Positions 1,800 through 20,261 of a DNA stretch of 56,295 nt are shown piece after piece (the stretch's first letter is position 1; the number at the start of each line of letters is the position of its first letter). The translations under genes were made by a program, and so were the position numbers. This DNA comes from a virus. Location of the stretch: positions 1 to 56,295 of IMG/VR virus record IMGVR_UViG_3300050821_007905; one strand, 5' to 3'. The notes beneath the pieces are model-generated. The model was not told the origin of the DNA, did not search any database, and saw only the letters and a program-made list of their open reading frames with translations.

Positions 1800-2375
1800 G
1801 TGGCCGCTGCCAAGCTGACCGACAAGCAGCGCGCGTTCGTCGAGGCCTACTTCGCCTGCGGATTCAACGCGACCAAGGCCGCGATCATGGCTGGCTACGC
1901 CGAGAAGAGCGCTGCCCAGCAGGGCTACCAGCTCCTTCAGATTCCTTCAGTGCGCGCGGCGATCGACGAGCGCTTCCTAGCCTTGGCTGACGACGCCGAG
2001 CAGATGCGCCGGCTGCTCGTCCGCGAGCTCGTCTCGATCCTGTCCTCCGACCTTGCCGGGCTCGTCGAGTGGGATGACAAGGGGATGCGGCTCGTGCCGT
2101 CCGCGGAGCTGACGCCGGAGCAGGCCTCGTCGCTGAAGGAAGTCTCGATGGTGATCCACGAGTACGAGTACGAGCATGAGCACCGGCCGTCGTTGCACAA
2201 GGTGACGCGGACGAAGATCGGTCAGCACGACAAGGTGCGGGCGGCTGATCTGCTCGCGCGCCTGCACGGCCTGTTGAAGGACAAGGTGGAGCTCTCAGGC
2301 AACGTCGGCATCACGCTTGATCGTTTGCACGAGTTGGCCGCGGCTGCTCGGGAACGGCGTGAACGAGACTCTTGA
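1800..2375 (+). CDS. terS: terminase small subunit
   Basis: GTG start, 191 residues. The N-terminus (LTDKQRAFVEAYF, then NATKAAIMAGYAEKSAAQQG) is the classic start of the Terminase_2 small subunit family, an HTH that recognises the packaging site. The middle is charged and the C-terminus (LDRLHELAAAARERRERDS) is helical, as expected for the oligomerising and TerL-binding part. The length is usual for the family. It overlaps the large subunit gene by 17 bases, which fixes the pair as an operon. Confidence 0.9.
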   Translation: MAAAKLTDKQRAFVEAYFACGFNATKAAIMAGYAEKSAAQQGYQLLQIPSVRAAIDERFLALADDAEQMRRLLVRELVSILSSDLAGLVEWDDKGMRLVPSAELTPEQASSLKEVSMVIHEYEYEHEHRPSLHKVTRTKIGQHDKVRAADLLARLHGLLKDKVELSGNVGITLDRLHELAAAARERRERDS

Positions 2376-3879
2376 CGACGAGGTCGCTGCCGAAGACTTC
2401 CTCGAGCAGGTACGAGCCGACCCGGTCTGGTTCTGCCGGAACGTCCTCCACTTCGAGCCGTGGAGCAAGCAGCGCGAGATCCTCGAGAGCGTCCGCGACC
2501 ATGACGCGACCGCGGTCCGCTCCGGTCACGGCGTCGGGAAGACGGCGGTGGCAGCGTCGGCGATCCTCTGGTTCCTGACCGCGTTCGGGCCCGAGGCGTT
2601 GTGCGTGACGACGGCGCCGACGTGGCGGCAGGTCCGCGACCTGCTCTGGCGCGAGGTCGCGAAGGCCGTCAAGCGCTCCGACGGGTTCTTCCACGGCCAC
2701 CTGACCGACACGCGCCTCGACTTCGCGCCCGAGTGGTACGCGGTCGGCTTGTCGACGAACCAGCCGGAGAACTTCCAGGGCTACCACGCGCCGCACCTGC
2801 TCTTCGTCGGCGACGAGGCCTCCGGCATCCGGCAGCCGATCTTCGAGGCCGCCGAAGGCTTCCTCACGAGCATCGGCGCGAAGACGCTGCTGATCGGCAA
2901 CCCGACCCAGATCGGCGGCGAGTTCCACTCCGCCTTCCATGGTGCGCGGTCGCTCTACAACACGATCCACGTGTCGGCGTTCGACACGCCGGCGTTCACG
3001 GGTGAGCCGGTGTCGGAGCAGGTCGCGCGCGTTCTGCCTTCGGCGGAGTGGGTGCGGCGAATGAAGACGAAGTACCGCGTCGCCGACAACGACGAGCGCG
3101 GCGGCAAAGGCACGAAGCTGCATCCGGTGTACGAGGTGCGCGTGATCGGCCAGTTCCCGTCGCAGGGCGAGCGCGCGGTGGTGCCGATGTTCGAGGTGGA
3201 GGCGGCGCAGGCGCGCGAGGTCGAGCTCGACGACGAATCATCGTGGCCGCGCGTCGTGTCGTGCGACCCGGCCAGGTTCGGTGACGACGAGACCGTGATC
3301 GCGCTCCGCCAGGGCAACCACGTCCGCATCCTCGAGGTACGGCAGGGGCAGGACACGATGGAGACCGTCGGCGCGCTCCTGATCGCCGCGCGGGACGCTG
3401 TCAGCGACAAGTACGGCAAGCCGGCGATCGTCGTCGACGAGATCGGCATCGGCGGCGGCATCATCGACCGGCTCAAGGAGGTCGCCGAGTTCCGCGTCGT
3501 CGCCTACAACGCATCCGCGTCGCCGGCTGAGGCGAACACCGGAGTCGGCGGCTACCCAAACGCGCGCTCCGAGCTGTGGTTCGAGTTCGCGAACGACTGG
3601 CTGCCCGAGCTCGACCTCGACACCGACGAGGATCTCCTCTCTGACCTGTGCGCGCCCGAGTACAAGATCGACTCGCAAGGGCGCCTCGTCGTCGAGCCAA
3701 AAGAGGAGACGAAGAAGCGTCTCGGCCGTTCACCGGACAGGGCGGACGCGGTGATGATGGCGTTCTGCCGTGCGGTGGCGGCTGGCATGAACGTGCGGCT
3801 GCCGACGGGTCCGCCGCCGCCGGGTGGCGTGTCGCGGTGGCAGGGGATGGGCGGGTCGGGCGGGTCGAAGTGGCGCTAG
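2359..3879 (+). CDS. terL: terminase large subunit (packaging ATPase/nuclease)
   Basis: Start taken as GTG 2359; the earlier TTG at 2317 would give extra residues that look like TerS shadow. About 506 residues. ATPase: Walker A SGHGVGKT near residue 55; Walker B with catalytic acid in LLFVGDEAS near 148; coupling region around LIGNPTQ. RNase H-like nuclease: SCDPARFGDDE near residue 300, VVDEIGIGGG near 357 and SPDRADAVMMAF near 460, which supply the three acidic positions. It cuts and pumps phage DNA into the prohead through the portal encoded at 14.2 kb. The ten-kilobase separation between terL and portal is unusual. Confidence 0.95.
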   Translation: MNETLDDEVAAEDFLEQVRADPVWFCRNVLHFEPWSKQREILESVRDHDATAVRSGHGVGKTAVAASAILWFLTAFGPEALCVTTAPTWRQVRDLLWREVAKAVKRSDGFFHGHLTDTRLDFAPEWYAVGLSTNQPENFQGYHAPHLLFVGDEASGIRQPIFEAAEGFLTSIGAKTLLIGNPTQIGGEFHSAFHGARSLYNTIHVSAFDTPAFTGEPVSEQVARVLPSAEWVRRMKTKYRVADNDERGGKGTKLHPVYEVRVIGQFPSQGERAVVPMFEVEAAQAREVELDDESSWPRVVSCDPARFGDDETVIALRQGNHVRILEVRQGQDTMETVGALLIAARDAVSDKYGKPAIVVDEIGIGGGIIDRLKEVAEFRVVAYNASASPAEANTGVGGYPNARSELWFEFANDWLPELDLDTDEDLLSDLCAPEYKIDSQGRLVVEPKEETKKRLGRSPDRADAVMMAFCRAVAAGMNVRLPTGPPPPGGVSRWQGMGGSGGSKWR

Positions 3880-4120: not shown

Positions 4121-4192
4121 GTGACAACCGCCGCAGCGATCTTCCTGCTCGCCATCGTGGCCCTCGTCTGGATGGGCGACCGGCGGCCATGA
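4121..4192 (+). CDS. 23-residue membrane peptide
   Basis: GTG start placed exactly nine bases after the CGATA motif. The peptide is one hydrophobic helix (AAAIFLLAIVALVWMGD) with a short basic end, and its TGA overlaps the next ATG as ATGA. The start position, the overlap and the composition together make it credible despite its size. Role unknown; single-span phage peptides are often linked to lysis or superinfection effects, but nothing here shows that. Confidence 0.5.
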   Translation: MTTAAAIFLLAIVALVWMGDRRP

Positions 4193-4473
4193 GCAAGTGG
4201 GTGTGGGGCTACTCGATCTGGGGCGGTAAGTGGCTGCTCGTCGACTTCCTCGTCTACGAGCTGCTCGGCTTCTTCGGCGTTGCGCCGTGGCCGACGCTCA
4301 GCGAGACGATCTGGCACGTCACCCGCACCTACCCGTGGACCGTTGAGCCGATCTTCGCGACGATCGTCTTCCTCACCGTCCACTTCCTCTACCACCGGCC
4401 GATCCTGATCTCGATCGCGTTCGGGCTGATCGTCGCCTACGGCGCGCACACGCTCGACCGCGCGCTCCCGTAG
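4189..4473 (+). CDS. membrane protein of unknown function
   Basis: ATG in ATGA overlap with the preceding peptide, 94 residues. Two or three hydrophobic segments are visible: WLLVDFLVYELLGFFGV, EPIFATIVFLTVHFLYH and LISIAFGLIVAYG. Many Trp/Tyr/Phe residues sit at likely membrane interfaces. Together with the 23-residue peptide it forms a short membrane-protein unit after terL. Unknown function. Confidence 0.65.
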   Translation: MSKWVWGYSIWGGKWLLVDFLVYELLGFFGVAPWPTLSETIWHVTRTYPWTVEPIFATIVFLTVHFLYHRPILISIAFGLIVAYGAHTLDRALP

Positions 4474-4833: not shown

Positions 4834-5211
4834 ATGACCGGCATCGCGAAGGCAGCGGTCGAAGCGTACGAGCCGATCCAGGCACGCGAGCAGGAGCACC
4901 AGCTCAAGATCCGCGACGAGCGCAAGAAGCGCGCCGAGGGACACTTCGCCCGCGTCTTCGGCGAGCACCAGGAGGCGACCGTCGAAGGCGTCGAGATCGT
5001 CTTCACGATCGACAAGAAGCACCGGCTCGCGTACACCGGCAACCTGCGCGAGAAGAAGAAGCTGGTCGGCCCCGGGTGGGCGTACCTCGAGAAGTGCGCC
5101 GGCTGCAAGCAGGAGCAGCCCGTCGCGTTCGTGCAGACGCTCGCCGACCTCGGCCGCATCCTCACCAACGGCACCCCGGAATGGGAGTGCCCGACCTGCA
5201 ACCCGGCGTGA
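4834..5211 (+). CDS. zinc-finger-like hypothetical protein
   Basis: ATG preceded by GGAGG five bases upstream; 125 residues. The N-terminal half is charged and helical (QAREQEHQLKIRDERKKRA). The C-terminal part has CAGC and CPTC about 40 residues apart, a likely zinc ribbon. It lies at the head of the sugar-related block and overlaps the next gene as GTGA. Function unknown. Confidence 0.65.
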   Translation: MTGIAKAAVEAYEPIQAREQEHQLKIRDERKKRAEGHFARVFGEHQEATVEGVEIVFTIDKKHRLAYTGNLREKKKLVGPGWAYLEKCAGCKQEQPVAFVQTLADLGRILTNGTPEWECPTCNPA

Positions 5212-5801
5212 GGGTCGTCGTTCCTTATGTCGGCGAGGTGCATCCCGACACGCTTGCCGGGGTCGACGGGTGGCCTGGCGGTGTCAGCTACCACGACGTC
5301 AGCGGCTCCGACACCGCATACGCCGAGCTGCTCCGCGAGCTGTGGCGCGAGCAGGAAGGTTTCTGCATCGTCGAGGGTGACGTCGTCCCGCTGCCGTGGA
5401 CGCTCGCCGAGTTCGCGGTCTGCCCCGAGCCGTATTGCGCTGCGCCGTACGCGCTCGAGGCGTTCGTCGGGGTCGCCCTTGGATGCACGCGCTTCTCGTC
5501 GCTCTTTCTCCGCTGCTATCCCGACGCGGCCGAGATCGCCGCGCGGATCCCTTCGCCCTTCGGTGAGCCTGGCCACTGGCGGCAGCTCGACGTGTGGCTG
5601 CAGGGCGCGGTCCTTCGCGACGAGTACGGATGGCAGCCGCACGCGCACGCCGAGGTGATGCACCGCAACCCAGCGCGGGAGTTGTCGCCGGCGGCGCAGG
5701 GGCTGCCGGTACGCACGCGAGTGGAGGGGCGCATGTACCTCGAGCCCGGGACCGTCGACAGGATCGCCGCCGATCTCGCCGGTTCGGCATCCGAGAGATA
5801 A
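5208..5801 (+). CDS. glycosyltransferase-like protein
   Basis: GTG in GTGA overlap, 197 residues. Begins with a short strand (RVVVPYVG), followed by helical ELLRELWREQ and then FCIVEGDVVPLPW, a position that matches the acidic nucleotide-sugar site of GT-A proteins. The LGCTRFSS segment and the aromatic C-terminal half fit phage glycosyltransferases of this size. No strict DxD is seen, so the call rests on order and context among other transferases. Confidence 0.5.
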   Translation: MRVVVPYVGEVHPDTLAGVDGWPGGVSYHDVSGSDTAYAELLRELWREQEGFCIVEGDVVPLPWTLAEFAVCPEPYCAAPYALEAFVGVALGCTRFSSLFLRCYPDAAEIAARIPSPFGEPGHWRQLDVWLQGAVLRDEYGWQPHAHAEVMHRNPARELSPAAQGLPVRTRVEGRMYLEPGTVDRIAADLAGSASER

Positions 5802-5810
5802 GCGACCGTG

Positions 5811-6425
5811 ATGGCCACGTTGACCGTGATCACGCCGACGAAGGGCAGGCCCAGCCTGTCCGCCACGATCGCCTCGGTAACGCCGCAGCTCGAGCACGGC
5901 GACGAGCTGATAGTCGTCGCGGATCTCGCGCACGGGCCGCATCCGTACGCGCGTGGCCTCTGCCGGTTGGCCCAGGACGGCTGCAGAGGGAAGGTCGTCT
6001 ACGCCGAGCTCGCCGTCGAGGGAAGCCAGTATGGGAACGCGCAGCGCGACTTCGGATTGAAGCTCGCCGGCGGCAGCCATCTCGCGTTTCTCGACGACGA
6101 CGACGTCTGGACCGACGACGCCGGCGCTCTGATCCACGAGGCGATCGACCTTCAGCCGCACTACGTCCACGTGTTCAAGGCCGAGTGGGGGCCCGGTCAT
6201 CACGCGCACGGCACGATCCTCTGGAAGGAGCCGCACTTCGTCGAGGGGCAGATCGGGACGCCGATGGTCGTGTGGCCGCGTCACCACGCGATGCCTCGGT
6301 GGATGGACTCGAACGAGCGCGGCGTCGTCTCTGACTTCGGCTGGATGAGCGCGGCGCTCGGCGCGACTCGGATCGGGTGGCATCCGCGGATCGTCGCGAC
6401 CGTGCGACCGGAGGCTCAGGCGTGA
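5811..6425 (+). CDS. family 2 glycosyltransferase
   Basis: Start ATG 5811 (GTG 5808 also possible); a weaker AGATAA at 5796-5801 precedes it. 204 residues. GT-A fold signature: TLTVITPTKGRP at the N-terminus, then AQRDFGLKLAGGSHLAFLDDDD, where the DDDD run supplies the metal and nucleotide-sugar binding acids. It is predicted to move a sugar from a nucleotide donor to an unknown acceptor in the host cytoplasm. Confidence 0.75.
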   Translation: MATLTVITPTKGRPSLSATIASVTPQLEHGDELIVVADLAHGPHPYARGLCRLAQDGCRGKVVYAELAVEGSQYGNAQRDFGLKLAGGSHLAFLDDDDVWTDDAGALIHEAIDLQPHYVHVFKAEWGPGHHAHGTILWKEPHFVEGQIGTPMVVWPRHHAMPRWMDSNERGVVSDFGWMSAALGATRIGWHPRIVATVRPEAQA

Positions 6426-6862
6426 CCTGCTCGGTCGACGGATGCGAGAATCCGGTCGCCACAAGCGGCCAGTGCTCGAAGCACTACATGCGCGGCTACC
6501 GCGCGACGAAGAAGCGTCTGCCCAGGAAACGGCGGAGCAGCATTCCCCTCGTCGAGCTCTGGGACAACGACGGCCGCGCACACGTCGCGTTCGAGACCGC
6601 GAGGGCGACCTTCTGCCTGCGTCCGCTCGACGCGCTGACCGACACGCCGACAGTGGTCGAGGGCTCGTGCGCACGTTGCGAAGCCGGGCGTCACACCGTC
6701 CCCTACATCCGCAGCCGCGAGCAGCTCGCGTACCTGACTCGCCTCTCGAACGCTGCGATCCATAGCAAGGTGCTGGAAGAGGAAGGTCTTGTCGCCGTCC
6801 TCATGCTCGCCGAGAAGAGGATCGTCGTTCCGCCCTACCGAGAGAAGCGGGCCGTCGCATGA
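6422..6862 (+). CDS. zinc-finger-like protein with a CxxxxC...CxxH cluster
   Basis: GTG in GTGA overlap, 146 residues. The N-terminus has CSVDGCENPV followed by GQCSKHYMRGY, a compact C-C-C-H zinc site seen in many phage HNH-like and DNA-binding proteins. Later CLRP and CARCEAG add cysteines. There is no HNH catalytic histidine pair, so nuclease activity cannot be claimed. Confidence 0.6.
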   Translation: MTCSVDGCENPVATSGQCSKHYMRGYRATKKRLPRKRRSSIPLVELWDNDGRAHVAFETARATFCLRPLDALTDTPTVVEGSCARCEAGRHTVPYIRSREQLAYLTRLSNAAIHSKVLEEEGLVAVLMLAEKRIVVPPYREKRAVA

Positions 6863-7488
6863 CCTGGCAGATCCTCATCGCCTCGGTCTACTCGCGGACA
6901 CGCGCGCTCGACAGTCTGCTCGCCCGCCTCTCCAAGCAAGCGTCTCCGTTCGCTGGCGAGGTCGGCATCCTCGTCGACCGTGACGACTGCGATCAGCCGG
7001 TGGGCGTGAAGCGAACGCGACTCGTGCAGGCGGCCACCGCCGAGCATGTCTGCTTCGTGGACGACGATGACGACGTGCGCGACGACTACATCGCCCAAAT
7101 CATGTACCTGCTCACGGGCGACCCCGACTACGTCGGCTTCCGGGTTGCGTACTCGATCGACGGCGCGCGCCAGAAGGACGCGATCCACAAGCTCGGCCAG
7201 CCGTGGAGCGAGACCGAGGACGCGTACCTGCGCGGCATCTCGCATCTCAACCCGATCCGGCGCGAGGCTGCCCTTGCCGGGCTTCCATTCCGTGACGGCT
7301 TCGGCGAGGACCACGAGTGGTCGGAGAAGGTGGAGGCGTCAGGGCTCGTGAAGGTGGGTGCGTACATCGACGAGTGTCTGTACCACTACCGCTATTCGTC
7401 CCAGGGGTCGCTGTTCAAGGCGGGGCCGCAGCGGGTCGGGAGCGATCCGGGGCTGCCGTCGTATCCGTTCGTGGAGGTGCTCGCGTGA
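6859..7488 (+). CDS. family 2 glycosyltransferase, paralogue A
   Basis: ATG in ATGA overlap, 209 residues. Begins TWQILIASVYSRT, then FAGEVGILVDRDDC, VGVKRTRLVQAATAEHVCFVDDDDD and SHLNPIRREAAL. The acidic run is the GT-A metal site. Strongly similar along its length to the gene at 8511, so one arose from the other by duplication with two genes and a transferase now between them. Confidence 0.8.
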   Translation: MTWQILIASVYSRTRALDSLLARLSKQASPFAGEVGILVDRDDCDQPVGVKRTRLVQAATAEHVCFVDDDDDVRDDYIAQIMYLLTGDPDYVGFRVAYSIDGARQKDAIHKLGQPWSETEDAYLRGISHLNPIRREAALAGLPFRDGFGEDHEWSEKVEASGLVKVGAYIDECLYHYRYSSQGSLFKAGPQRVGSDPGLPSYPFVEVLA

Positions 7489-7628
7489 CGCGCGTGATCT
7501 TCGTCGCAGTCCGTGAGCCTCGGTACGCCGTGCCCGGCTACTTCAAGCCCGGCGACCTCGTGCTCGACCCGTTCGGCTACATCCCCGACCAGGCGGGCGT
7601 CACCGTGATCCGGATCGGACGCAAGTGA
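7485..7628 (+). CDS. small hypothetical protein
   Basis: GTG in GTGA overlap with the transferase, 47 residues, with a basic beta-rich pattern (RVIFVAVREPRYAVPGYF ... AGVTVIRIGRK). It overlaps the next start as GTGA. Nothing recognisable, but tight coupling on both sides supports it. Confidence 0.5.
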   Translation: MTRVIFVAVREPRYAVPGYFKPGDLVLDPFGYIPDQAGVTVIRIGRK

Positions 7629-7834
7629 AGCCGCGGCGCATCGTCGTCTGCCTCGTGATCGGCGCGGTCGTGGGTTGGTTCGGCGTGCGACCCGGTCATC
7701 CCGAGAACGGCGTCGTGGCAGGCTTGCTGACCGCGCTGCTGGTGGCGCTGTTCTTCGTCTACCACGGCTACACCGAAGCGCTCGCCCGCGACCTCGAGAT
7801 CAATCCGCACCTGTACCAGAGGCGCCGCAAGTGA
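7625..7834 (+). CDS. small membrane protein
   Basis: GTG start, 69 residues with two membrane spans (IVVCLVIGAVVGWFGV and VVAGLLTALLVALFFVYHG) and charged tails. Its end overlaps the next transferase by four bases. It could anchor or assist the glycosyltransferases at the membrane, but only context suggests that. Confidence 0.6.
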   Translation: MKPRRIVVCLVIGAVVGWFGVRPGHPENGVVAGLLTALLVALFFVYHGYTEALARDLEINPHLYQRRRK

Positions 7835-8514
7835 TCTCGATCCTCTGCCCCTCTCGCGGCCGCCCGCGCGCGTTCGCCAGCATGGTCCACAGCGCCTACG
7901 CCAACGCGCACGACCCCGACCAGGTCGAGATCGTCTGCTACCTCGACGAAGACGACCCGCAACGCGACGGCTACACCGGAGCGAATGACCTTCAGCGCGT
8001 CCGCTTCCTCACCGGCCGCCGCATCGTCCTCTCCGACATGTGGAATCAGTGCAGCCAGGCTGCCGGCGGCGACATCCTCATGCACTGCGGCGACGACATC
8101 CGCTTCCGCACGCCCGACTGGGACACACTCGTCACCGACGCGCACGCGCGCTACCCCGACGGGATCGCGGTCGTGCATGGCGAAGACGGCACCTTCCACG
8201 ACGGCCACGGCACCCACTGCTTCCTCACCCGCCGCTGGGTCGAAACGGTCGGCTACTTCACACCACCATGGTTCGTGTCGGACTTCGCCGACACGTGGCT
8301 GAACGAGCTCGCCGACACGATCGGCCGGCGGATCTTCCTGCCCGACCTGTTCACCGAGCATCTGCATCCCGAATACGGGCTGAGCCCCAGGGACGAGACG
8401 CTCACCGATCGGTACGAGCGCCATCACGCTGAACGGCCCGACCTGCTGTACGCGGAGCTCGCGCCGCGCAGGGTTGAGGACGCGGAGAAGCTGCGGGCGG
8501 CGATGCTGCCGTGA
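7831..8514 (+). CDS. glycosyltransferase-like protein (GT-A fold)
   Basis: GTG in GTGA overlap, 227 residues. ISILCPSRGRP is a family 2 start; later VEIVCYLDEDDP and GGDILMHCGDDIRF carry acidic motifs typical of the nucleotide-sugar site; a conserved-looking FFTPPWF-like stretch (YFTPPWFVSDFAD) follows. It belongs to the same accessory block as the two MTWQILIAS paralogues but is not closely similar to them. Confidence 0.7.
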   Translation: MISILCPSRGRPRAFASMVHSAYANAHDPDQVEIVCYLDEDDPQRDGYTGANDLQRVRFLTGRRIVLSDMWNQCSQAAGGDILMHCGDDIRFRTPDWDTLVTDAHARYPDGIAVVHGEDGTFHDGHGTHCFLTRRWVETVGYFTPPWFVSDFADTWLNELADTIGRRIFLPDLFTEHLHPEYGLSPRDETLTDRYERHHAERPDLLYAELAPRRVEDAEKLRAAMLP

Positions 8515-9179
8515 CCTGGCAAATCCTGATCGCGTCGACGTGGGTGCGCACCGGGAAGCTCGACGCGCTCCTCTCCCATCTTGCGCCACAGATCGAGCCG
8601 TACGCGGGCGAGGTTGGTGTGCTGATCGCGCGCGACGACTGCACGGAGCCGATCGGCGACAAGCGGACCAGTCTCGTCGAGGCAGCGACGGCGGAGTACG
8701 TGTCATTCCTCGACGACGACGACTGGGTGCCCGACAACTTCATCGAACGCATCGTGGACGCGCTCGCGTCGAAGCCTGACTACGTCGGCTGGCGGATGCA
8801 GGTCATCCACGACGGCCGCCCGTTGAAGCCGACGTTCCACTCGCTCCGCTACCAGGGCTGGGACGAGGACGAGCACGGCTTCTACCGCAACGTGTCCCAC
8901 CTGAATCCGATCCGCCGCGAGCTCGCGCTGCTCGGGCTGCCGTTCCCGAGCCGGTACCCGGAGGACGGCGAGTGGGCGGCGAAGGTCTGGCAGACAGGCC
9001 AGGTCGAGCGTGAGGTGTTCATCGACGAGCCGATGTACGAGTACCGCACCGGTTCGGGCGTGTCGCTGCACGACCCGTCGGTGGAACGGCACGCGGAGTG
9101 GTCGCCGCTGCCGTTCTACGACTTTGTGTCGCATCTCGCCAGCAACGGCGCGGTCGTGCGCGACTCGGAGTACGTGTAG
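8511..9179 (+). CDS. family 2 glycosyltransferase, paralogue B
   Basis: GTG in GTGA overlap, 222 residues. Same plan as the gene at 6859: TWQILIAS start, YAGEVGVLIARDDC, DKRTSLVEAATAEYVSFLDDDDW and SHLNPIRRELALLGLPF. The DDDD run is the probable metal site. Differences are concentrated in the C-terminal acceptor half, so the two copies may act on different acceptors. Confidence 0.8.
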   Translation: MTWQILIASTWVRTGKLDALLSHLAPQIEPYAGEVGVLIARDDCTEPIGDKRTSLVEAATAEYVSFLDDDDWVPDNFIERIVDALASKPDYVGWRMQVIHDGRPLKPTFHSLRYQGWDEDEHGFYRNVSHLNPIRRELALLGLPFPSRYPEDGEWAAKVWQTGQVEREVFIDEPMYEYRTGSGVSLHDPSVERHAEWSPLPFYDFVSHLASNGAVVRDSEYV

Positions 9180-10225
9180 TGCGCATCGGCTGGATCGGAC
9201 TTGGCAAGCTCGGCCTGCCGATCGCGGCAGAGATCGCGAAGACGCACACCGTCTACGGCAACGAGACCTTCTGCGGCGACGACCTCGAACCGATCAAGCC
9301 GGACAGCAGCCCGCTCATGCTCGCGGGCAAGACCGCTCTGCTCGACTGCGACCTGATCTTCGTCGCCGTCCAGACGCCGCACGGGCCTAAGTACGAGGGC
9401 GTAACGCGTCTGCCGGAGACGCGCGCCGACTTCGACTACCGCTACCTGACCGAGGCGGTGCGCTCGCTCGCCTCCGCCGGGGAGAAGCGGCCGCCTCTCG
9501 TCATCATCTCAACGGTCCTGCCGGGCACGATCGAACGGGAGATCCTGCCGCTCTGGGACGGGCCCGTGATCTTCAACCCGTTCTTCATCGCGATGGGCAG
9601 CGAGGTCGCGGACTTCCTCGACCCGGAGTTCGTGCTGCTCGGCGTCGACCATCGTGTGCCCACTGAGCTGATCGAGCTTTACCGGTCACTCGGCGTCGAG
9701 GCGCCCGCTCTCATCACGGGCTACCGCGAGGCCGAGCTCGCGAAGATGGCCTACAACACCTTCATCGGCCTGAAGATCGCCTACGCGAACACGATCGGCG
9801 AGCTGTGCGCACGGCTCGGCATCGACGCGACCGCCGTCCTGAACATTGTGCGGGCGGGGAAGAAGCGGATCACGTCGCCGGCGTACATGTCGGCCGGGAT
9901 GGGCGATGGCGGCCCCTGCCATCCGCGCGACAACATCGCGCTCTCGTGGCTTGCCCGTGAGACGGGGATGAGCTTCGACCTGTTCGACGCCGTCATGCGG
10001 CAGCGCGAGAACCACGCGGAGTGGCAGGCGGATCTAATACTGGACGCATCGTTTCGCGTGCCGCTTGACGATCCCGACGGCTTCGAGCAATACCTGCCGG
10101 TAACGGTGCTCGGCCGCGCCTACAAGGACGGCACCGAGATCGAGACCGGGTCGCCCGGGCTGCTCATCGCGGAACTGCTGCGCGAGCGCGGCGTCGAGTT
10201 CGAGCACGCGAGCGACCTGCCGTGA
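9179..10225 (+). CDS. nucleotide-sugar dehydrogenase (UDP-glucose 6-dehydrogenase family)
   Basis: GTG at 9179 shares its G with the preceding TAG. 348 residues. NAD-binding Rossmann motif GLGKLGLP at residues about 7-14; VAVQTPHG; STVLPGTIERE; the central helix AELAKMAYNTFIGLKIAYANTIGEL, which carries the family's lysine and asparagine; and GGPCHPRDN near residue 245 with the catalytic cysteine. The C-terminal substrate domain ends in VLGRAYKDGTEIETGSP. The family oxidises UDP-sugars to UDP-uronic acids. Here it would supply the neighbouring glycosyltransferases with an acidic sugar donor. Confidence 0.85.
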   Translation: MRIGWIGLGKLGLPIAAEIAKTHTVYGNETFCGDDLEPIKPDSSPLMLAGKTALLDCDLIFVAVQTPHGPKYEGVTRLPETRADFDYRYLTEAVRSLASAGEKRPPLVIISTVLPGTIEREILPLWDGPVIFNPFFIAMGSEVADFLDPEFVLLGVDHRVPTELIELYRSLGVEAPALITGYREAELAKMAYNTFIGLKIAYANTIGELCARLGIDATAVLNIVRAGKKRITSPAYMSAGMGDGGPCHPRDNIALSWLARETGMSFDLFDAVMRQRENHAEWQADLILDASFRVPLDDPDGFEQYLPVTVLGRAYKDGTEIETGSPGLLIAELLRERGVEFEHASDLP

Positions 10226-10914
10226 CCGTCTACGTCCCGAACCTTCACGCGGCGTTCCCGCACACCGACCCGATCATCATCAACGGCATGCCGACCGTCA
10301 CCGACCGCGACTTCAACCCCGGCTGCGGCTACATCAGCGACGAGGAAGCAGCGATCATCTACCAGACCGCCCAAGCCTTCCCGGGCACGTGGGTTGAGGT
10401 CGGCGCGCACACCGGCTGGTCCGGCGCGCACATCGCACTGGGTGCGGGCGAGCTCGTCGCGCTCGAGCCGATGTTCTACCAGGTCGGCTTCTTCAGGCGG
10501 GCCCGCGAGAACTGGGGGCGCGCCGGCGTCTGGGACAGGGTGCTCCCGATCGCGTACGGGTCGGATCGGTACTTCGCCGAGGGCGGGGCGTCCGACGTCG
10601 TCTTCTCGGGTGCGTTCATCGACGGCGACCACGAGCCCGGGATGCCGCTGCAGGATGCGCGTCTCGTGCTGCCGAGGATGAGCGAGCGGTGCTGCGTCGC
10701 GTTCCACGATTTCGTAGGGCCGCCGGTGCGTGAGGCGGTGACGTGGCTCGTGCGCGAGCAGGGGTTCCGGTTCCGCGTCTACGACACGATGGGGATGCTC
10801 GCCGTCTGCTGGCGCGGCGACTTCGCGCCGGTCGAGCACGCGGGCGATCCGGGTCGGGACTGGCAGGCGTTGCGGGAGCAGCACGTCGACTTCGACTACG
10901 CGGGCGAGACGTGA
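10222..10914 (+). CDS. class I SAM-dependent methyltransferase
   Basis: GTG in GTGA overlap, 230 residues. The SAM-binding strand-loop reads WVEVGAHTGWSGA (motif I), followed by LVALEP with the acidic residue at the end of strand 2 and GAFIDGDHEPG as a motif like that of Methyltransf_24 proteins. The acceptor may be a sugar or a small molecule. It sits between the dehydrogenase and a second methyltransferase, so modification of the transferred sugar is the simplest reading. Confidence 0.75.
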   Translation: MTVYVPNLHAAFPHTDPIIINGMPTVTDRDFNPGCGYISDEEAAIIYQTAQAFPGTWVEVGAHTGWSGAHIALGAGELVALEPMFYQVGFFRRARENWGRAGVWDRVLPIAYGSDRYFAEGGASDVVFSGAFIDGDHEPGMPLQDARLVLPRMSERCCVAFHDFVGPPVREAVTWLVREQGFRFRVYDTMGMLAVCWRGDFAPVEHAGDPGRDWQALREQHVDFDYAGET

Positions 10915-11264
10915 CCGACTACCGCTCGCTAAGCGACCGCGAACTTCGTCAGCTCCAACAGGACGCCGAGCAGGCCGAGCACGAGCCCGAGCTGCGCGCC
11001 GAAGAGAAGGCGGCCGGTTCGCCCGATTGGGACACCGTCGACTACATGACGTTGCTTCGACGCTCGATCGCGCGCTTCAACGAAGCCCGCCGGCCGGACG
11101 ATCTCCGGAAGGCTCACCAGCTCGCAATCGCTGACCCCGAGTCGCTCAGCACGGATGCGCTTCACTGGGCGGTTTTCGACGCGGAGACGCGTGAGCGGCG
11201 CATTCGGGAGCTCGAGGCGCGCGACCGGCGGGCGAATCGCAGGGGACTGTTGTCGTGGCGCTGA
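10911..11264 (+). CDS. charged helical hypothetical protein
   Basis: GTG in GTGA overlap, 117 residues, rich in Glu/Arg/Gln, with likely coiled-coil stretches (SDRELRQLQQDAEQAE and RERRIRELEARDRR). It overlaps the following methyltransferase by ten bases. No motif recognised. Confidence 0.6.
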   Translation: MTDYRSLSDRELRQLQQDAEQAEHEPELRAEEKAAGSPDWDTVDYMTLLRRSIARFNEARRPDDLRKAHQLAIADPESLSTDALHWAVFDAETRERRIRELEARDRRANRRGLLSWR

Positions 11265-11863
11265 CCGACTGGTCCCAGTCCGGCGAAGAGGCGATGATCC
11301 TTCCGTGGGCCGTCCGTCACGGTCAGGGCCGGTGGCTCGACATCGGAGCCGCCGACGGCAGCAGCGCGAGCAACACGCACGCGCTCGCCCTCGAAGGCTG
11401 GCCCGGCGTCGCCGTCGAACCAGCCGCCGGCTACTTCGCCCACCTCGCCAACCTCTATGCCGACCGGCCCGACGTCGAATGCGTCCAGGCGGCCGTGGTC
11501 ACCGAGCCCGCCCCCCTCGTCCGCTTCTACCTCTCCGATGATCTTGTCTCGACCACCGACGAGGCGCACGTCAAGACGTGGGGGAAGATCGCGACATTCA
11601 ACGCGCTGTACGTCGGAGCGGTGACCGTTGCAGAATTGCTCTCCTGCTTTCCCGGTCCGTACGACTTCGCGTCGATCGACACCGAAGGCACGAGCGTCGA
11701 ACTGTGGGACGAGCTGCGCCGGCTGGACGCGTTCGCGCCGGGCGCGCTAGCGGTGATCGAGGCTGAGGATGGCGGCGAGCGCTGGCAGATCCAGCGGGCG
11801 TGCCTGGACGGGTGGGCGCGCGTCGGCGTGACGCCGAACAACGTGCTCTTGGAGCGGCTGTGA
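11255..11863 (+). CDS. FkbM-like methyltransferase
   Basis: GTG start, 202 residues. The order is that of the FkbM family: EEAMILPWAV, RWLDIGAADGSSAS as the SAM loop, GVAVEPAAGYFAHL with the acid that binds the ribose, and DFASIDTEG as the family's second signature. FkbM proteins methylate sugar hydroxyls and similar groups. It would act together with the transferases in this block. Confidence 0.8.
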   Translation: MALTDWSQSGEEAMILPWAVRHGQGRWLDIGAADGSSASNTHALALEGWPGVAVEPAAGYFAHLANLYADRPDVECVQAAVVTEPAPLVRFYLSDDLVSTTDEAHVKTWGKIATFNALYVGAVTVAELLSCFPGPYDFASIDTEGTSVELWDELRRLDAFAPGALAVIEAEDGGERWQIQRACLDGWARVGVTPNNVLLERL

Positions 11864-12012
11864 TCTCCGGCGGCGGCGATTGGCGTCTCACTGGAGGCCC
11901 GGTCTGCCCCGACCTTCTTCGCTACGACCAGATCGGTGCGGCGGATGGTTTTCGCGGCCGCGTCGTACGCGCGTTCTTCTGGCTGATGCGTCTCTGGCCT
12001 ACTCCCGGGTAG
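11860..12012 (+). CDS. small hypothetical protein
   Basis: GTG in GTGA overlap, 50 residues with aromatic C-terminus (VVRAFFWLMRLWPTPG). No domain seen. It is kept because the overlap and codon pattern match its neighbours. Confidence 0.4.
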   Translation: MISGGGDWRLTGGPVCPDLLRYDQIGAADGFRGRVVRAFFWLMRLWPTPG

Positions 12013-12015
12013 CCC

Positions 12016-12021
12016 CGATAG
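12016..12021 (+). promoter_or_regulatory. CGATA-class late promoter (CGATAG, 8 bases to GTG 12029)
   Basis: CGATAG with eight bases between GATA and the GTG at 12029, in a 16-base gap and with no ribosome binding site. Confidence 0.5.
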
Positions 12022-12028
12022 CGGGGGC

Positions 12029-12253
12029 GTGCGCTTCCCCGCCGCCTGCCACATCGTCACCTGCTTCCCCTGCGGCTACCGCGAAGCCATCCGGCCAGGA
12101 GCCGCCTACCCGCCCTGCTGCCCGAACTGCGGCAGCGGCCTCGAGCGGTACGAGACCGCGATCAACGACCGCGCAGAGTGGCGCGACGTCGCAAGGCCCG
12201 GGCACACACGGAAGGTCGAACGGCCGCGGCTCGTGATCGGGGCGCCCGCGTGA
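12029..12253 (+). CDS. small zinc-binding protein
   Basis: The GTG is placed by the CGATA motif; 74 residues. Cysteines in CFPCGYREA and PPCCPNCGSG form two CxxC knuckles, a probable rubredoxin-like or zinc-ribbon fold. Small phage zinc ribbons can bind nucleic acid, but no partner is shown. Confidence 0.6.
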   Translation: MRFPAACHIVTCFPCGYREAIRPGAAYPPCCPNCGSGLERYETAINDRAEWRDVARPGHTRKVERPRLVIGAPA

Positions 12254-12405
12254 GCACCGAGGCGCAGCCGATCTGCCTGCAGCACGACTTCGTCGCGCAC
12301 GGCTTCCACTGGCGGCGAGGCGAGAGGTTCCAGTACCGCGTGTGGGCCGCGCTCAAGCTCATCAGCGCCACCTCGGCGCGACTCTACTTCGAGACGACGT
12401 CGTGA
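12250..12405 (+). CDS. small hypothetical protein
   Basis: GTG in GTGA overlap on both sides, 51 residues. Has HGFHWRRGERFQYRVWAAL, no known motif. Confidence 0.45.
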   Translation: MSTEAQPICLQHDFVAHGFHWRRGERFQYRVWAALKLISATSARLYFETTS

Positions 12406-13076
12406 TCCGGCGCGCGATCTGCAACGTCGCCGTCGGCGCCTGGTACCCGGAAGGGCAGGACCGCCTCTTCTACAGCCTCGAAGATCGCGACGAGAACGCG
12501 ACGCGTCTCTTCTGGCGCGACGAGTACCCGCCCGGCGCGCGCGCCCACCAGGACTCCCTCTACGGCTTCAAGGTGTACGCGCTCCTCCGCGCGCGCGAGC
12601 TCGGCCACCAGCAAGCGCTCTGGCTCGACGCGTCCTGCTGGCTGGTCAAGCCGCTCAACGACATCTGGGCGCGCCTCGACGAGGACGGCTACTACTTCGA
12701 GCCCGACGGCAACACCGTCGGCCCCTGGACAGGGGACCGCTGCCACGAGCTGCTCGGCCTCACCCGCGACGAGACGATGTGCATGCCGCTCTTCGAGGGA
12801 AAAAGCTTCGGCCTCGACTTCCGCGACGAGACCGCCAACGCGTGGCTCGACGAGATGCACCGGCTTGAGCAGGAGGGCGCGTTCTTCGGGTCGCTGACGA
12901 ACCATCAGGGTGAGGTGTCGAGTGATCCGCGCTGTCTCGGCCACCGCGGCGACATCAGCGTCGGTTCGCCGTTGATCGACTCGTTCGGGATGCGGCTGCA
13001 GACGGTCAAGCGGGTCTGGTTCCCGTCGAACGGTGGGGCGCCGGATCACGTGTGCCTGATGGCGCAGGGCATGTGA
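12402..13076 (+). CDS. glycosyltransferase-like protein
   Basis: GTG in GTGA overlap, 224 residues. The central sequence ALWLDASCWLVKPLNDIW resembles the region of small phage and capsule glycosyltransferases where a DxD-like site sits after a hydrophobic strand; SLYGFKVYALLRAREL precedes it and YYFEPDGNTVGPW follows. The strict DxD is replaced by DAS. It is most simply another transferase of the block, with moderate confidence. Confidence 0.55.
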   Translation: MIRRAICNVAVGAWYPEGQDRLFYSLEDRDENATRLFWRDEYPPGARAHQDSLYGFKVYALLRARELGHQQALWLDASCWLVKPLNDIWARLDEDGYYFEPDGNTVGPWTGDRCHELLGLTRDETMCMPLFEGKSFGLDFRDETANAWLDEMHRLEQEGAFFGSLTNHQGEVSSDPRCLGHRGDISVGSPLIDSFGMRLQTVKRVWFPSNGGAPDHVCLMAQGM

Positions 13077-13486
13077 TGGCCGCGCCTCCTCCTCACGACG
13101 GCCCGTGCAAGCGATGCGGCGGCGACGAGGACGTCACCGCGCTCGGACGCTACCGCGGACTGTGCGCGACGTGCCGGCCGATCGTCGCTGAAGAACAGAA
13201 GGCCGCACGGGCACGGCGCGAGCCCGAGCAGCCGCCGAGACTCGACGACGACTCGGACGACGGGATCGAGGGCGAGCTCCGCGCGAGGGCGTCGCAGCGC
13301 GGCAAGCTGAGGATCGTCTGCCAGGAGCTCGTTGGGAAGGCGGATGCCCTCGAGGAAGCGATCGAGGAACGCGCGGCCGCGCGGATCCATGCGCAGAGCG
13401 CCCTCCACGAGTTCAAGGAGGCGCTGCAGCTCGTCGGCCGGGTCGCGCAGTCGCTCGTCAACGCGCGCGCGGAGACGTCAGAGTGA
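13073..13486 (+). CDS. zinc-ribbon protein with helical C-terminal half
   Basis: GTG 13073 in GTGA overlap (ATG at 13076 is an alternative); 137 residues. N-terminal CKRCGGDED ... CATCRP is a two-knuckle zinc ribbon. The rest is helical and charged (KADALEEAIEERAAARI). Function unknown. Confidence 0.6.
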   Translation: MMAAPPPHDGPCKRCGGDEDVTALGRYRGLCATCRPIVAEEQKAARARREPEQPPRLDDDSDDGIEGELRARASQRGKLRIVCQELVGKADALEEAIEERAAARIHAQSALHEFKEALQLVGRVAQSLVNARAETSE

Positions 13487-14184
13487 AGCGCGTCGTCATC
13501 GCGGTACCGACGATCCCCGAACGCCGCGAGCGTCACGCAGGCGTCGAAGCGTTCTGGCGCGACCGTACCCCCGAACACCACGTCGACGTCGTCTTCTCCG
13601 AGGCAGGGAAGTCGTGGGGCGCCGGCCTGAACGACGTCTACCAGCAGGTCAAGGCGGATCCGCCCGACTTCTTCGTTTGCGGCAGCGACGACATGGTGCC
13701 CGCCGACGAACGGTGGCTGCCGAGCGCCGAGCTCTGGATGGAGAGGGCCTGCTACGTCTGTCCGCGTGTCGACGACCCGCGGTTCGTGAACTATGGCAGC
13801 GCTGACGGGCCGCACGTGCGCGTGGAGGACGGCGCACCGGGCGACATGAGCACGTTCCCGATCCTCCGAGGCGACTGGCTCGAGCTCGCGTTCCCGCTAC
13901 CCGACGACCTGCACTACTTCGCCGACTCGCTGATCGCCGCACGCATCTACAAGGCAGGGATCCGTGCGGTCGCGGTGCCGAGCTGCCGCATCATCCACCT
14001 GCACGCGCCCGAAGGCCGCGGCGCAGGCTACGGGTCCGAGAACACGCGGCTGTACATCGACACGGTCCGGTACACGCGTGCGCTCGAGGCTGAGGGCATC
14101 GACCGCGCGACGCTGCCGAACGGGATCCGTGGCGGCATGTGGGAGCCGCACTTCATCGAGATCGGCACCCTGGCAGGCGCATAG
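13483..14184 (+). CDS. glycosyltransferase-like protein
   Basis: GTG in GTGA overlap, 233 residues. RVVIAVPTIPERRE is a typical family 2 start; FFVCGSDDMVPADERW contains the acidic motif; HYFADSLIAARIYKAGIRAVAVP resembles the acceptor-side helix and strand of such enzymes. It closes the accessory block just before the portal gene. Confidence 0.65.
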   Translation: MKRVVIAVPTIPERRERHAGVEAFWRDRTPEHHVDVVFSEAGKSWGAGLNDVYQQVKADPPDFFVCGSDDMVPADERWLPSAELWMERACYVCPRVDDPRFVNYGSADGPHVRVEDGAPGDMSTFPILRGDWLELAFPLPDDLHYFADSLIAARIYKAGIRAVAVPSCRIIHLHAPEGRGAGYGSENTRLYIDTVRYTRALEAEGIDRATLPNGIRGGMWEPHFIEIGTLAGA

Positions 14185-14201: not shown

Positions 14202-15587
14202 GTGGCCGACAGCGACGAGACGAGCGTCAGCACGAGCACCTTCGCCGGCGGCATCACGTACGGCCTCGGCCCGATGAGCCGCGCCGCGATCGCGAAGGCA
14301 GGCTCGACCCGCATCAGCCCCTACGACGAGATCGGCCGCACCGGCCTCCGCCAGTGGGGCGGCTACGTCCTCGAGGAATGGCTGTCGGAGCTGCAGGGCC
14401 GCCGCGGCGCCGAGATGTACCGCGAGATGTCCGACCAGGACCCCGTCATCGGGGCGATCCTCTTCGCCTGCGAGATGCTCGTCCGCAAGGTGACGTGGTG
14501 GGTCGAGCCCGCCTCAACCGCGCAGCCCGACCTGCAGGCGAAGATCTTCGCGGAGGAGTGCCTGTTCGAGGACATGACGATGTCCTGGAACGACACCATC
14601 AGCGAGATCATGTCGATGCTGCCCTACGGGTACTGCGTCACAGAGATCCTCTACAAGAAGCGCGGCGGCGACGTCGTCGACCCGACCCGCCAGTCGAAGT
14701 TCACCGACGGACGGGTCGGGCTGCGCGAGCTCGCGATCCGCTCGCAGGACTCGCTGCTGCGCTGGGAGTTCGACGACTACGGGCGCGTGCTGGCGATGGT
14801 CCAGCAGCCGCCGCCGACGTACGCGACGTACACGATCCCGCTCGAGAAGGCGCTGCTGTTCCGGACGAAGGTCCACAAGGCCAACCCTGAAGGCCGGTCG
14901 ATCCTGCGGAACGCGGTCCGGCCGTACTACTTCCTGAAGAACCTCCAGAACATCGAGGGCATCGGGGTCGAGCGCGACCTCGCCGGCTACCCGGTGTTGA
15001 CGCCGCCCGAGGGCGTCGACATCTGGAACACGAAGGACCCGGCGATGGCGCAGCTGCTGCAGAACGCGCAGGCGTTCGTGTCGCAGGTGCGCCGCGACGA
15101 GCTCGAGGGCGTCGTGAAGCCGCACGGGTGGACGTTCGAGCTGCTGACCAGCGGCGGCCGCCGGGCATTCGACACGAACGCGATCATCGGCCGGTACGAG
15201 CAGCGGATCGCGACGAGCGTGCTCGCCGACATGGTGCTGCTCGGCCAGGACAAGGTGGGGAGCTACGCGCTGGCCGGGGCGAAGAAGGATCTCTTCTCGG
15301 CCGCACTGGAGTCGTTTCTCGATCAGATCGCGAGCGTGTTCAACACGTTCTGCATCCCACGGTTGATGAAGCTGAACGGCTTCCAGGGGCTGACGGACTG
15401 GCCGAAGCTGACGCACGGCGCGGTCGAGGACGTCGATCTGGCGACGATCGCGGAGCTGCTGACGGCGATGGGTGCTGCGGGCGCGCCGGTGTTCGCTGGT
15501 GACGCGGAGGACAAGTTGATGAACGCGCTGCTCGACAAGATGGGGTTGCCGTCGGTGACGGCGGACGACACGTCGGAGGGCGAGTGA
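14202..15587 (+). CDS. portal protein
   Basis: GTG placed by the CGATA motif; 461 residues. Features: YREMSDQDPVIGAILFACEMLVRKVTWWVEPA near residues 70-105, LPYGYCVTEILYKKR near 140, then a long body with RRAFDTNAIIGRYEQRIATSVLADMVLLGQ. This order matches portal proteins of the DUF935/Mu gp29-like type used by many actinophages. The portal forms the ring through which TerL packages DNA and to which the connectors bind. Confidence 0.85.
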   Translation: MADSDETSVSTSTFAGGITYGLGPMSRAAIAKAGSTRISPYDEIGRTGLRQWGGYVLEEWLSELQGRRGAEMYREMSDQDPVIGAILFACEMLVRKVTWWVEPASTAQPDLQAKIFAEECLFEDMTMSWNDTISEIMSMLPYGYCVTEILYKKRGGDVVDPTRQSKFTDGRVGLRELAIRSQDSLLRWEFDDYGRVLAMVQQPPPTYATYTIPLEKALLFRTKVHKANPEGRSILRNAVRPYYFLKNLQNIEGIGVERDLAGYPVLTPPEGVDIWNTKDPAMAQLLQNAQAFVSQVRRDELEGVVKPHGWTFELLTSGGRRAFDTNAIIGRYEQRIATSVLADMVLLGQDKVGSYALAGAKKDLFSAALESFLDQIASVFNTFCIPRLMKLNGFQGLTDWPKLTHGAVEDVDLATIAELLTAMGAAGAPVFAGDAEDKLMNALLDKMGLPSVTADDTSEGE

Positions 15588-18305: not shown

Positions 18306-20261
18306 GTGGCAGGCACCCTCTACCTGATCCGGCACGGTGCCACGAAGCTCAACGAGGGCCCGAACCGCGAAGACCGGATCCGCGGCTGGCTCAACCCGCC
18401 ACTCATCCAGGCTGGGAAAGACCAGGCGGCCGCCGACGCGAAGAAGCTCGCCGACTCCGGCATCACACGCATCTACTCGAGCGACCTGCAGCGCGCGGCC
18501 GACACCGCCAAGACGATCGCTGCCGCGCTCGACGTGCCCGTCCAAGACTCGATCGACTTTCGCCCCTGGAACCTCGGCGACCTCCAAGGCGACCCGGCGA
18601 AAGAGGTGGCGTCGAAGCTCCGCTACTACGCCGAGCATCCCGACGAGAAGGTGCCGGGCGGCGAGTCGTTCAGCGACTTCACGAGTCGCTACTTGTCCGC
18701 GTTCAAGCCGCTCTACAAGCGCACCCAGGACGGGGAGACGCTCGCGATCGTCACGCACTACCGCAACGTGAAGCTCACGCAGGCCTACCTCAAGGGCGGC
18801 CAGGGGATCGATCTCGACCAGTTCTTCACCGACGACCTGAAGCCCGGCGACATCATCGCCCTCAGCGGCGGCAAGTGGACGGACGTGAAGAAGGCCGAGG
18901 CGGCGACGGTCTCGTTGCGCCGGCGCGGCTACCCCGAGCTCGTCCGCAAGGCCGATCCGGTCGCGGCCGGCATCGCCGTAAGGGCGGCGGACACGGGGCG
19001 TGTGCTGATGCTGCAGCGGTCGATCAGCGACCCCACCGATCCGGCGGCGGGCAAGTGGGAGTTCCCCGGCGGCTGCCTCGAGAACGGCGAGACGCCAGAC
19101 GACGGGGCGGTGCGTGAGTGGGAGGAAGAGACCGGCACGCAGCTCCCCGACGGCCACTACGCCGGCTGCTGGCAGAGCGGCGTCTACCACGGCTGCGTGT
19201 ACGTCATCCCGCACGAGAGCGATGTGCCGCTCAACCTCGACTCTGACGACCGCGCTGTCACGAACCCCGACGATCCCGACGGCGACGACTGCGAAGTGCT
19301 CGCATGGTGGCCACCCACGCAGGCGCGCGCGAACCCGGGACTCCGCACCGAAGTGCAAGGCGCGGACTGGACGCTGATCGCGCAGGCGGTCCCCGACGCC
19401 GTCTTCAAGGCGTCGCTTCGGAAGTACCCGGAGCTCGTCGCGAAAGACTCACCGACGTCGACCGACGTTCACGTCGACGCGCCGATGGGCGACATCTCGA
19501 GCGCCGACCTCGACGACAACGGCAAGAAGAAGCGCAAGCCGTTGAAGGTCGCCGACACCGACGTGCAGGTGCTCAAGGTCGACGACGAGAAGCGGATCGT
19601 CTACGGGATCGTCCTCGAGCCCGACGTCGAGGACTCCCAGGGCGACGTCGTCTCGAAGGAAGACGTCGAGCTCGCGGCGCACCGGTTCCTGTACCAGTCG
19701 GCGCCGATCGGGATCCAGCACGGCGCGATGGCGCCCGACAGCGTCAGGCCGGTGGAGAGCTACATCGCGCCGGCCGACTTCGAGCTCGGCGGCCAGGTCG
19801 TCAAGGCGGGCACGTGGGTGCTCGCGACGCACGTTCCCGACGAGCAGTTGTGGCAGGCCGTGAAGAAGGATGGGTTCGGGTCGTACTCGGTCGCCGGCAG
19901 CGGCAAGCGTGGTCCGCTCGAGCGAGTCACGAAGGAAGCTGCCTTGCCTTCGCCGCAGCCGATCATCCATCACACGCACGTCCACATCGACAAGGACGCG
20001 ATCCAGGTGGGCTCTCCGGTCGTTCACGCCCATCACGACATCCACGTGGCTCCGTCTCCTGCTCCGGTCGTCCACAACCACGTTGATGTGGCTGCCCCCG
20101 TTGTTCATGCCCACAGCGACGTTCACGTGCCCGAGCAGGCTGCCCCGGTCGTCAACGTCGAGAATCACGTTGAGGCGCCGAAGCCCGAGAAGGCTCCGAC
20201 GCGCACCGTCGACTTCAAGCGGAACGGGATGGGGCAGATCACCGGGGCGAAGGTGCAGTAG
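18306..20261 (+). CDS. fusion: histidine phosphatase - Nudix hydrolase - XkdF-like domain - His-rich tail
   Basis: GTG placed by the CGATA motif; 651 residues in one open frame. Residues 1-195: histidine phosphatase with LIRHGAT (His10 nucleophile), SSDLQRAADTA and IVTHYRNV. Residues about 215-345: Nudix hydrolase with FPGGCLENGETPDDGAVREW then EEETG, complete with the catalytic glutamates of the Nudix box. Residues about 425-545: VYGIVLEPDVEDSQGD, AHRFLYQSAPIG and FGSYSVAG, the pattern of the XkdF domain found next to capsid genes in PBSX-like phages. Residues 552-620: His-rich repeats. XkdF is usually linked with head assembly; two hydrolases in front of it are unexpected. Confidence 0.75.
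   Translation: MAGTLYLIRHGATKLNEGPNREDRIRGWLNPPLIQAGKDQAAADAKKLADSGITRIYSSDLQRAADTAKTIAAALDVPVQDSIDFRPWNLGDLQGDPAKEVASKLRYYAEHPDEKVPGGESFSDFTSRYLSAFKPLYKRTQDGETLAIVTHYRNVKLTQAYLKGGQGIDLDQFFTDDLKPGDIIALSGGKWTDVKKAEAATVSLRRRGYPELVRKADPVAAGIAVRAADTGRVLMLQRSISDPTDPAAGKWEFPGGCLENGETPDDGAVREWEEETGTQLPDGHYAGCWQSGVYHGCVYVIPHESDVPLNLDSDDRAVTNPDDPDGDDCEVLAWWPPTQARANPGLRTEVQGADWTLIAQAVPDAVFKASLRKYPELVAKDSPTSTDVHVDAPMGDISSADLDDNGKKKRKPLKVADTDVQVLKVDDEKRIVYGIVLEPDVEDSQGDVVSKEDVELAAHRFLYQSAPIGIQHGAMAPDSVRPVESYIAPADFELGGQVVKAGTWVLATHVPDEQLWQAVKKDGFGSYSVAGSGKRGPLERVTKEAALPSPQPIIHHTHVHIDKDAIQVGSPVVHAHHDIHVAPSPAPVVHNHVDVAAPVVHAHSDVHVPEQAAPVVNVENHVEAPKPEKAPTRTVDFKRNGMGQITGAKVQ
19963..20190 (+). repeat. His-rich protein repeats at the end of the fusion protein
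   Basis: Three to four degenerate copies of a 15-18 residue unit (variants of APVVHAHSDVHV) with many His on alternating positions, as in a beta-strand or beta-helix fibre. The DNA here uses more T-ending codons than its surroundings. Could bind metal or form an elongated stalk. Confidence 0.55.

Follow-up and report, generated by a model that had tools for sequence, protein, structure and literature searches.

The virus record IMGVR_UViG_3300050821_007905 (positions 1 to 56,295, the whole 56,295-base stretch analysed here and called the window) carries, between the genes for the terminase large subunit (terL) and the portal protein, a one-strand run of small genes that we call the block. We propose that the block is probably an exchangeable virion-glycosylation cassette, for which the head gene module of this temperate tailed phage has a fixed slot. 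The original prediction, made from the sequence alone, had placed a sugar-modification block between terL (ending at 3879) and the portal (starting at 14202), and profile searches confirmed it by identifying transferases, methyltransferases and a nucleoside diphosphate (NDP)-sugar dehydrogenase in this interval. The window has a high GC content and, from its genes, belongs to a tailed phage: it encodes the small and the large terminase subunit, a portal, a MuF-like protein, a protease, a scaffold, a major head protein, tail proteins and a lysin; a tyrosine integrase encoded on the opposite strand indicates a temperate phage. Among 50,697 annotated phages, we found no close DNA relative of the window and none at all over the block. 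Weak nucleotide similarity was limited to the portal, where it points to Arthrobacter and Microbacterium phages, and to short terminase stretches.

The block breaks the usual terL-portal order, as had been claimed: the gap between the two genes measures 54-580 bp in 10 portal relatives. The two genes are not adjacent in all relatives, however: two of these, L114 and L122, have a block at this position, so that the condition named as refuting the original prediction fails. The L114 portal is 62% identical to that of the window, and in L114 the genes gt1-gt2-gt3-mt1-fkbm-zn3-gt6-gt7-portal follow one another in the window order with 45-64% identity; they stand directly before the portal, and the third transferase matches gt3/gt5. 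The L114 contig covers the portal side only, the terL end lying off the contig. Its block is devoid of the dehydrogenase, of gt4 and of the 47-codon open reading frame (ORF), and has instead an RNA-ligase-like gene, other methyltransferases and HNH genes. In L122 (portal 57% identical), the distance from the probable terL to the portal is 12.4 kb, and the interval contains homologs of gt1 and gt2, further GT2 and GT6 transferases and two methyltransferases. Since L114 and L122 carry partly different gene sets before the portal, the slot has been kept while its genes were exchanged. With terL and portal nearly adjacent in the ten other relatives, the block is a lineage-specific insertion. These viral relatives were found with alignments and with gt6; scanning viral sequences with portal, terL or gt7 as single queries gave no useful relatives. 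Within 4834-14184, we read the gene junctions directly and observed overlaps of exactly four bases at 13 of the 18, in agreement with the statement that most genes overlap in this way; the block is thus translationally coupled.

The estimate of about six glycosyltransferases was fair. Four are GT-A glycosyltransferases by profile (gt2 to gt5), a fifth was recognised by its fold (gt6) and two are probable (gt1 and gt7). For the Pfam family PF00535, gt2 and gt5 exceed the cut-off and gt3 falls slightly under it, while gt3, gt4 and gt5 all have strong PHROG matches. Profile searches matched gt6 to no sequence family. Structure prediction, which had been suggested as a check on the transferases, succeeded for gt6: an AlphaFold2 model built from six homologs (predicted local distance difference test, pLDDT, 80.2) has a GT-A fold (Foldseek E-value 3e-5, probability 1.00). 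Its closest structure is BoGT6a of family GT6 (Z 12.2, root mean square deviation 3.4 over 180 residues), and the PBCV-1 capsid glycosyltransferase (Z 11.6) resembles it in fold only. The model of gt7, on the other hand, was too poor for a fold search (pLDDT 46.6), and both gt1 and gt7 are conserved genes without a family match in profile searches. Searching solved structures by sequence with gt3 and with fkbm returned nothing usable. As judged from hydropathy only, none of the block transferases has a transmembrane segment. In five other viral loci (L115-L119), gt6 is found together with gt4-like and gt5-like transferases and no dehydrogenase was detected there; because of this, we conclude that the trio also travels on its own.

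The dehydrogenase matches both PF03721 and PF00984, and its NCBIfam subfamily score (150 bits) lies under the 189.8-bit cut-off. We compared its active site with solved enzymes and with a published family survey (PMC4794789), and took a census of 108 homologs. The equivalents of the catalytic residues Cys260, Lys204, Asn208 and Asp264, as well as Thr118, are kept in the window enzyme, and the Cys, Lys, Asn and Asp are invariant across the 108 homologs. Other positions have changed. According to the survey, Pro140-Glu141 is invariant in the NDP-sugar dehydrogenases covered and Tyr10 is 98% conserved, the latter being credited there with thioester hydrolysis (PMC4794789). In the homologs of the window enzyme, the Glu141 position is occupied by F, Y, Q, A, S or L and never by Glu (0/108; F135 in the window), the Tyr10 position by Lys, or Arg in two, with no Tyr in 104 readable rows (K10 in the window), and the Glu145 position by Met in 106 of 108. 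Residues vary at the Arg327 position, with Thr, Val, Ala or Asp in most cases, and the GGSCFPKD motif of canonical enzymes becomes GG[GAPS]CHPRD in this subfamily. The methylated uronic acid that had been proposed as the product has no support in that form: an NDP-sugar dehydrogenase-type enzyme and methyltransferases are present, but the uronic acid is a guess because the enzyme is without residues conserved in canonical uronate-forming enzymes.

The window dehydrogenase is also split. Its chain ends at 348 residues, short of the last strands of the C-terminal nucleotide-binding domain, and the missing segment is encoded by a separate small ORF. Among all loci, such detached tails occur only in the window and in L005, L023 and L027, each time with a tailless enzyme and always just ahead of gt4, to which the tail is fused in the latter three. 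Since other phages have a tail-bearing dehydrogenase followed by gt4, the split looks like a rearrangement that stranded the tail in front of gt4. Because the tail keeps the family motif and occurs only with the tailless enzyme, we infer that the two pieces may work together as a split protein.

Relatives of this dehydrogenase were detected in at least 509 viral contigs, versus 20 loci in 84,980 prokaryote genomes, a rough ratio as IMG/VR is redundant and the search patterns differed slightly. The enzyme belongs to a virus-dominated subfamily with a divergent active site, which we report as new. A bolder hypothesis, which we offer as possible but tentative, is that of a distinct virus-dominated family oxidising the C6 of nucleotide sugars without ordinary uronic acid release, made as two pieces in two phage lineages and feeding exchangeable particle glycans. 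The outcome could then be, for example, an aldehyde, or a thioester passed to another nucleophile to give an amide or an ester. A NadE-like ammonia-dependent synthetase abuts the dehydrogenase in L010, L012, L013 and L046, which suggests that these phages may make amidated sugars; such a neighbour would fit amidation of a carboxylate and cautions against assuming that no uronate forms. In several phages, radical-SAM-like proteins with B12-type N-terminal regions, assigned by sequence, directly precede the dehydrogenase (L006, 8547-10004; L007, 8805-9977).

The dehydrogenase recurs with gt4 in other phages, a gt4-family transferase being found near it in 40 of 107 loci and abutting it in 18. 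In L005, L023 and L027, dehydrogenase, gt4-type transferase and methyltransferase lie between terL and the portal, which there comes from a different family (phrog_776); the match of terL to phrog_38 was shown for L005. The cassette is placed after the head gene in L006 and L007, and before terL in L054, L062 and L063. In 9 of the 12 records with terL located, terL lies at most about 10 kb from the dehydrogenase (4.3 expected, P 0.002, a somewhat optimistic value as three of the 12 are related). Larger phages also carry the dehydrogenase away from terL, which makes the link a tendency rather than a rule. Searching the dehydrogenase records for the SPP1-portal family gave no matches.

On this basis, the following mechanism can be proposed. 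Late in infection, the soluble GT-A transferases gt2 to gt6, and probably gt1 and gt7, would use nucleotide sugars to assemble a short glycan straight onto a protein of the particle. A nucleotide sugar oxidised at C6 would come from the dehydrogenase and be transferred by gt4, and the two methyltransferases would cap hydroxyls. The particle acceptor, the enzyme product and the sugar order are what we infer from the gene set. Phage DNA, particle proteins and the host surface had all been named as potential acceptors. Particle proteins are best supported because of the late head-gene placement in several unrelated phages, the soluble GT-A enzymes and the kinship of gt3 and gt5 to gp108 of mycobacteriophage Che8. 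Several points nevertheless weigh against virion glycosylation. Neither the major capsid protein nor the tail-tube protein ends in a Ser/Thr-rich C-terminal extension, other sites being possible, and small membrane ORFs in or near the block of a temperate phage could also serve a modification of the host surface. Moreover, the homology to Che8 gp108 reaches only two transferases, at about 30%, the transferase cluster of Che8 itself is located outside its structural genes, and the late-gene position is indirect support.

It is rather unlikely, in our opinion, that the block alters the glycan of the infected or lysogenic cell, like the gtr serotype-conversion operons. The integrase, the small membrane ORFs at 4189 and 7625, the GT2 type of the transferases and the presence of dehydrogenase homologs in viral gene sets that also contain epimerases and aminotransferases, as is typical of polysaccharide synthesis, would all fit such a function. 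However, the block contains neither a flippase-like gene nor a multi-transmembrane transferase, it is co-directional with the late head genes and distant from the integrase region, and partner cassettes lie in the head modules of unrelated phages. Hypermodification of the phage genome, with sugars on its bases as in T4-like phages or Bacillus phage SP-15, is far less probable still. Gene 146 of SP-15, a uridine diphosphate (UDP)-glucose dehydrogenase, offers a precedent (PMC5977210), and the block adjoins packaging genes. Yet the SP-15 enzyme is canonical (NPEF, GGSCFPKD), unlike that of the window, and neither a thymidylate-synthase-type hydroxymethylase (PF00303) nor a C5 methylase (PF00145) was found in the window or in 12 related records, in searches whose positive controls matched; a search for TET/JBP dioxygenases gave no match, but neither did its positive control. 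Another possibility is that the dehydrogenase has lost its activity as an NDP-sugar oxidase and that the glycan is made from host sugars only. The loss of the Tyr10, Glu141, Glu145 and Arg327 equivalents and of the fused C-terminus points in this direction, as does the retention of a block without the enzyme in L114. We hold it to be improbable in view of the invariance of the four catalytic residues and of the detached tail, whose family motif is preserved and which accompanies only tailless enzymes.

The two methyltransferases that had been announced correspond to a Pfam match and to a weak FkbM match below the cut-off, and the predicted zinc and membrane proteins are present as zinc/HNH-like and small membrane ORFs (Table 1). 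In contrast, the claim that the block has its own CGATA starts was wrong, and we rejected this motif as a block-specific signal. Across the genome, no 5-mer is more strongly tied to start codons than CGATA, which is rare elsewhere; of its 19 plus-strand copies, 14 lie 8-11 nt upstream of a start codon (for example 4474, 12016, 14188, 18292, 26068, 32545, 37136 and 38712), across late genes including the portal. In L114, 6 of 10 copies are start-linked, with the same placement at the portal and zn3. The motif may be a -10 or leaderless start signal specific to the phage. Elsewhere in the window, a Ser/Thr-rich protein with repeated SGTFWQATQPVSL motifs, possibly a decoration protein, is encoded at 20261-21574 between the protease and head genes; AT skew is very strong (0.43) at 23001-24000, across the gene upstream of the scaffold; and a nine-base tandem repeat, CGCAGCCCG, is present in 26 copies at 56031-56265, in the 5' part of the minus-strand DUF6745 gene at the record end.

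Table 1. Genes of the block, its boundaries and the gap ahead of it.
Feature	Position	Strand	Evidence
terL, left boundary	2359..3879 (ORF opens at 2317)	+	tblastn to annotated phage terminases
Small membrane-type protein, 94 amino acids, in gap ahead of block	4189..4473	+	One transmembrane-like segment; weak homolog at L114 contig edge
Zinc-ribbon-like protein (CxxC...CxxC), block start	4834..5211	+	Sequence
gt1, probable transferase	5208..5801	+	50% identical in L114, 36% in L122; no Pfam match
gt2, GT2-family glycosyltransferase	5808..6425	+	PF00535 E 1e-5; 45% identical in L114
HNH/zinc-finger-like protein	6422..6862	+	phrog_1271, phrog_5351 E 2e-4
gt3, GT2-type transferase, Che8 gp108 / phiAsp2 Pas33 family	6859..7488	+	phrog_14775 E 3e-34; Che8 gp108 and Pas33 homology
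Detached dehydrogenase C-terminal segment, 47 amino acids	7485..7628	+	Hidden Markov model of 57 dehydrogenase C-termini E 3.5e-13; BLAST to 43 loci
Small two-transmembrane protein, 69 amino acids	7625..7834	+	Hydropathy
gt4, transferase recurring with dehydrogenase	7831..8514	+	phrog_14945 E 5e-37; dehydrogenase loci (see text)
gt5, GT2-type transferase, gt3 paralog	8511..9179	+	PF00535 E 2.5e-8; phrog_14775 E 1e-31
NDP-sugar dehydrogenase-like enzyme without C-terminal segment and Tyr10, Glu141, Glu145 equivalents	9179..10225	+	PF00984 E 6e-22; phrog_9148 E 3e-59
mt1, class I methyltransferase (Methyltransf_24)	10222..10914	+	PF13578 E 6e-9; 49% identical in L114
fkbm, FkbM-like methyltransferase	11255..11863	+	TIGR01444 E 2e-7, weak, below cut-off; 60% identical in L114
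zn3, zinc-finger-like small protein, CGATA ahead	12029..12253	+	48% identical in L114
gt6, GT-A glycosyltransferase recognised by fold	12402..13076	+	AlphaFold2 model; BoGT6a and PBCV-1 enzyme (see text)
Zinc-finger / coiled-coil-like protein	13076..13486	+	Weak phrog_15412, phrog_1035
gt7, probable glycosyltransferase adjoining portal	13483..14184	+	64% identical in L114; SDD motif
Portal protein, right boundary	14202..15587 (GTG start at 14202)	+	Homology to annotated portals, including L114

To our knowledge, few phages have been shown to have glycosylated particles. If our proposal is true, phages would vary the sugars of their coat in much the same way as bacteria do their O-antigens, on the basis of a slot beside the portal with exchangeable transferases and of a virus-dominated dehydrogenase that recurs with gt4 in head modules. 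The signature GKLG / P[FY]FIAMG / GG[GAPS]CHPRD provides a handle for finding such cassettes in metagenomes, and the absent residues make the chemistry of the dehydrogenase directly testable. Altogether, the original observation was right and more than chance, and its interpretation was right in outline.

Phage glycan cassettes are already known; what is new here is a terL-portal slot with exchangeable genes and a dehydrogenase that is divergent, split and virus-dominated. Like the window, SP-15 has a phage UDP-glucose dehydrogenase together with transferases. This enzyme is thought to feed DNA-linked phosphoglucuronate, and SP-15 also has a hydroxymethyluridylate synthase (PMC5977210); neither such a synthase nor a canonical dehydrogenase was seen in the window. 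The gtr serotype-conversion operons are likewise phage-borne glycosyltransferase genes of temperate phages, but have a flippase-like gene and a membrane-anchored transferase, neither of which was seen in the block, as judged from hydropathy only. With the UDP-glucose and guanosine diphosphate-mannose 6-dehydrogenases, the window enzyme shares the PF03721 and PF00984 domains and the catalytic Cys, Lys, Asn, Asp and Thr; it differs by Lys for Tyr10, Met for Glu145, a position 141 that is never Glu, and a C-terminus encoded apart. In the Actinoplanes phage phiAsp2, compared by genes alone, Pas33 matches gt3 and gt5, and Pas34 is a gt4-like domain joined to a methyltransferase; Pas33-Pas35 are sited after the tail genes, and have no dehydrogenase with them. 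A parallel can also be drawn with the virion glycosylation of the cluster F mycobacteriophages including Che8 (genes 108-110), a type marked by glycans on capsid and tail tube, at the C-termini of the subunits. Che8 capsids are reported to carry glycans in PMC11256854, which cites Freeman 2023. Both gt3 and gt5 are homologous to gp108 (E 4e-19 and 9e-17 in a small set, 30-33% identity), and both systems combine several transferases with a methyltransferase function. Whereas the three-glycosyltransferase cluster 108-110 lies at the right end of the Che8 genome and has no dehydrogenase, the window block is larger and stands between terL and the portal.

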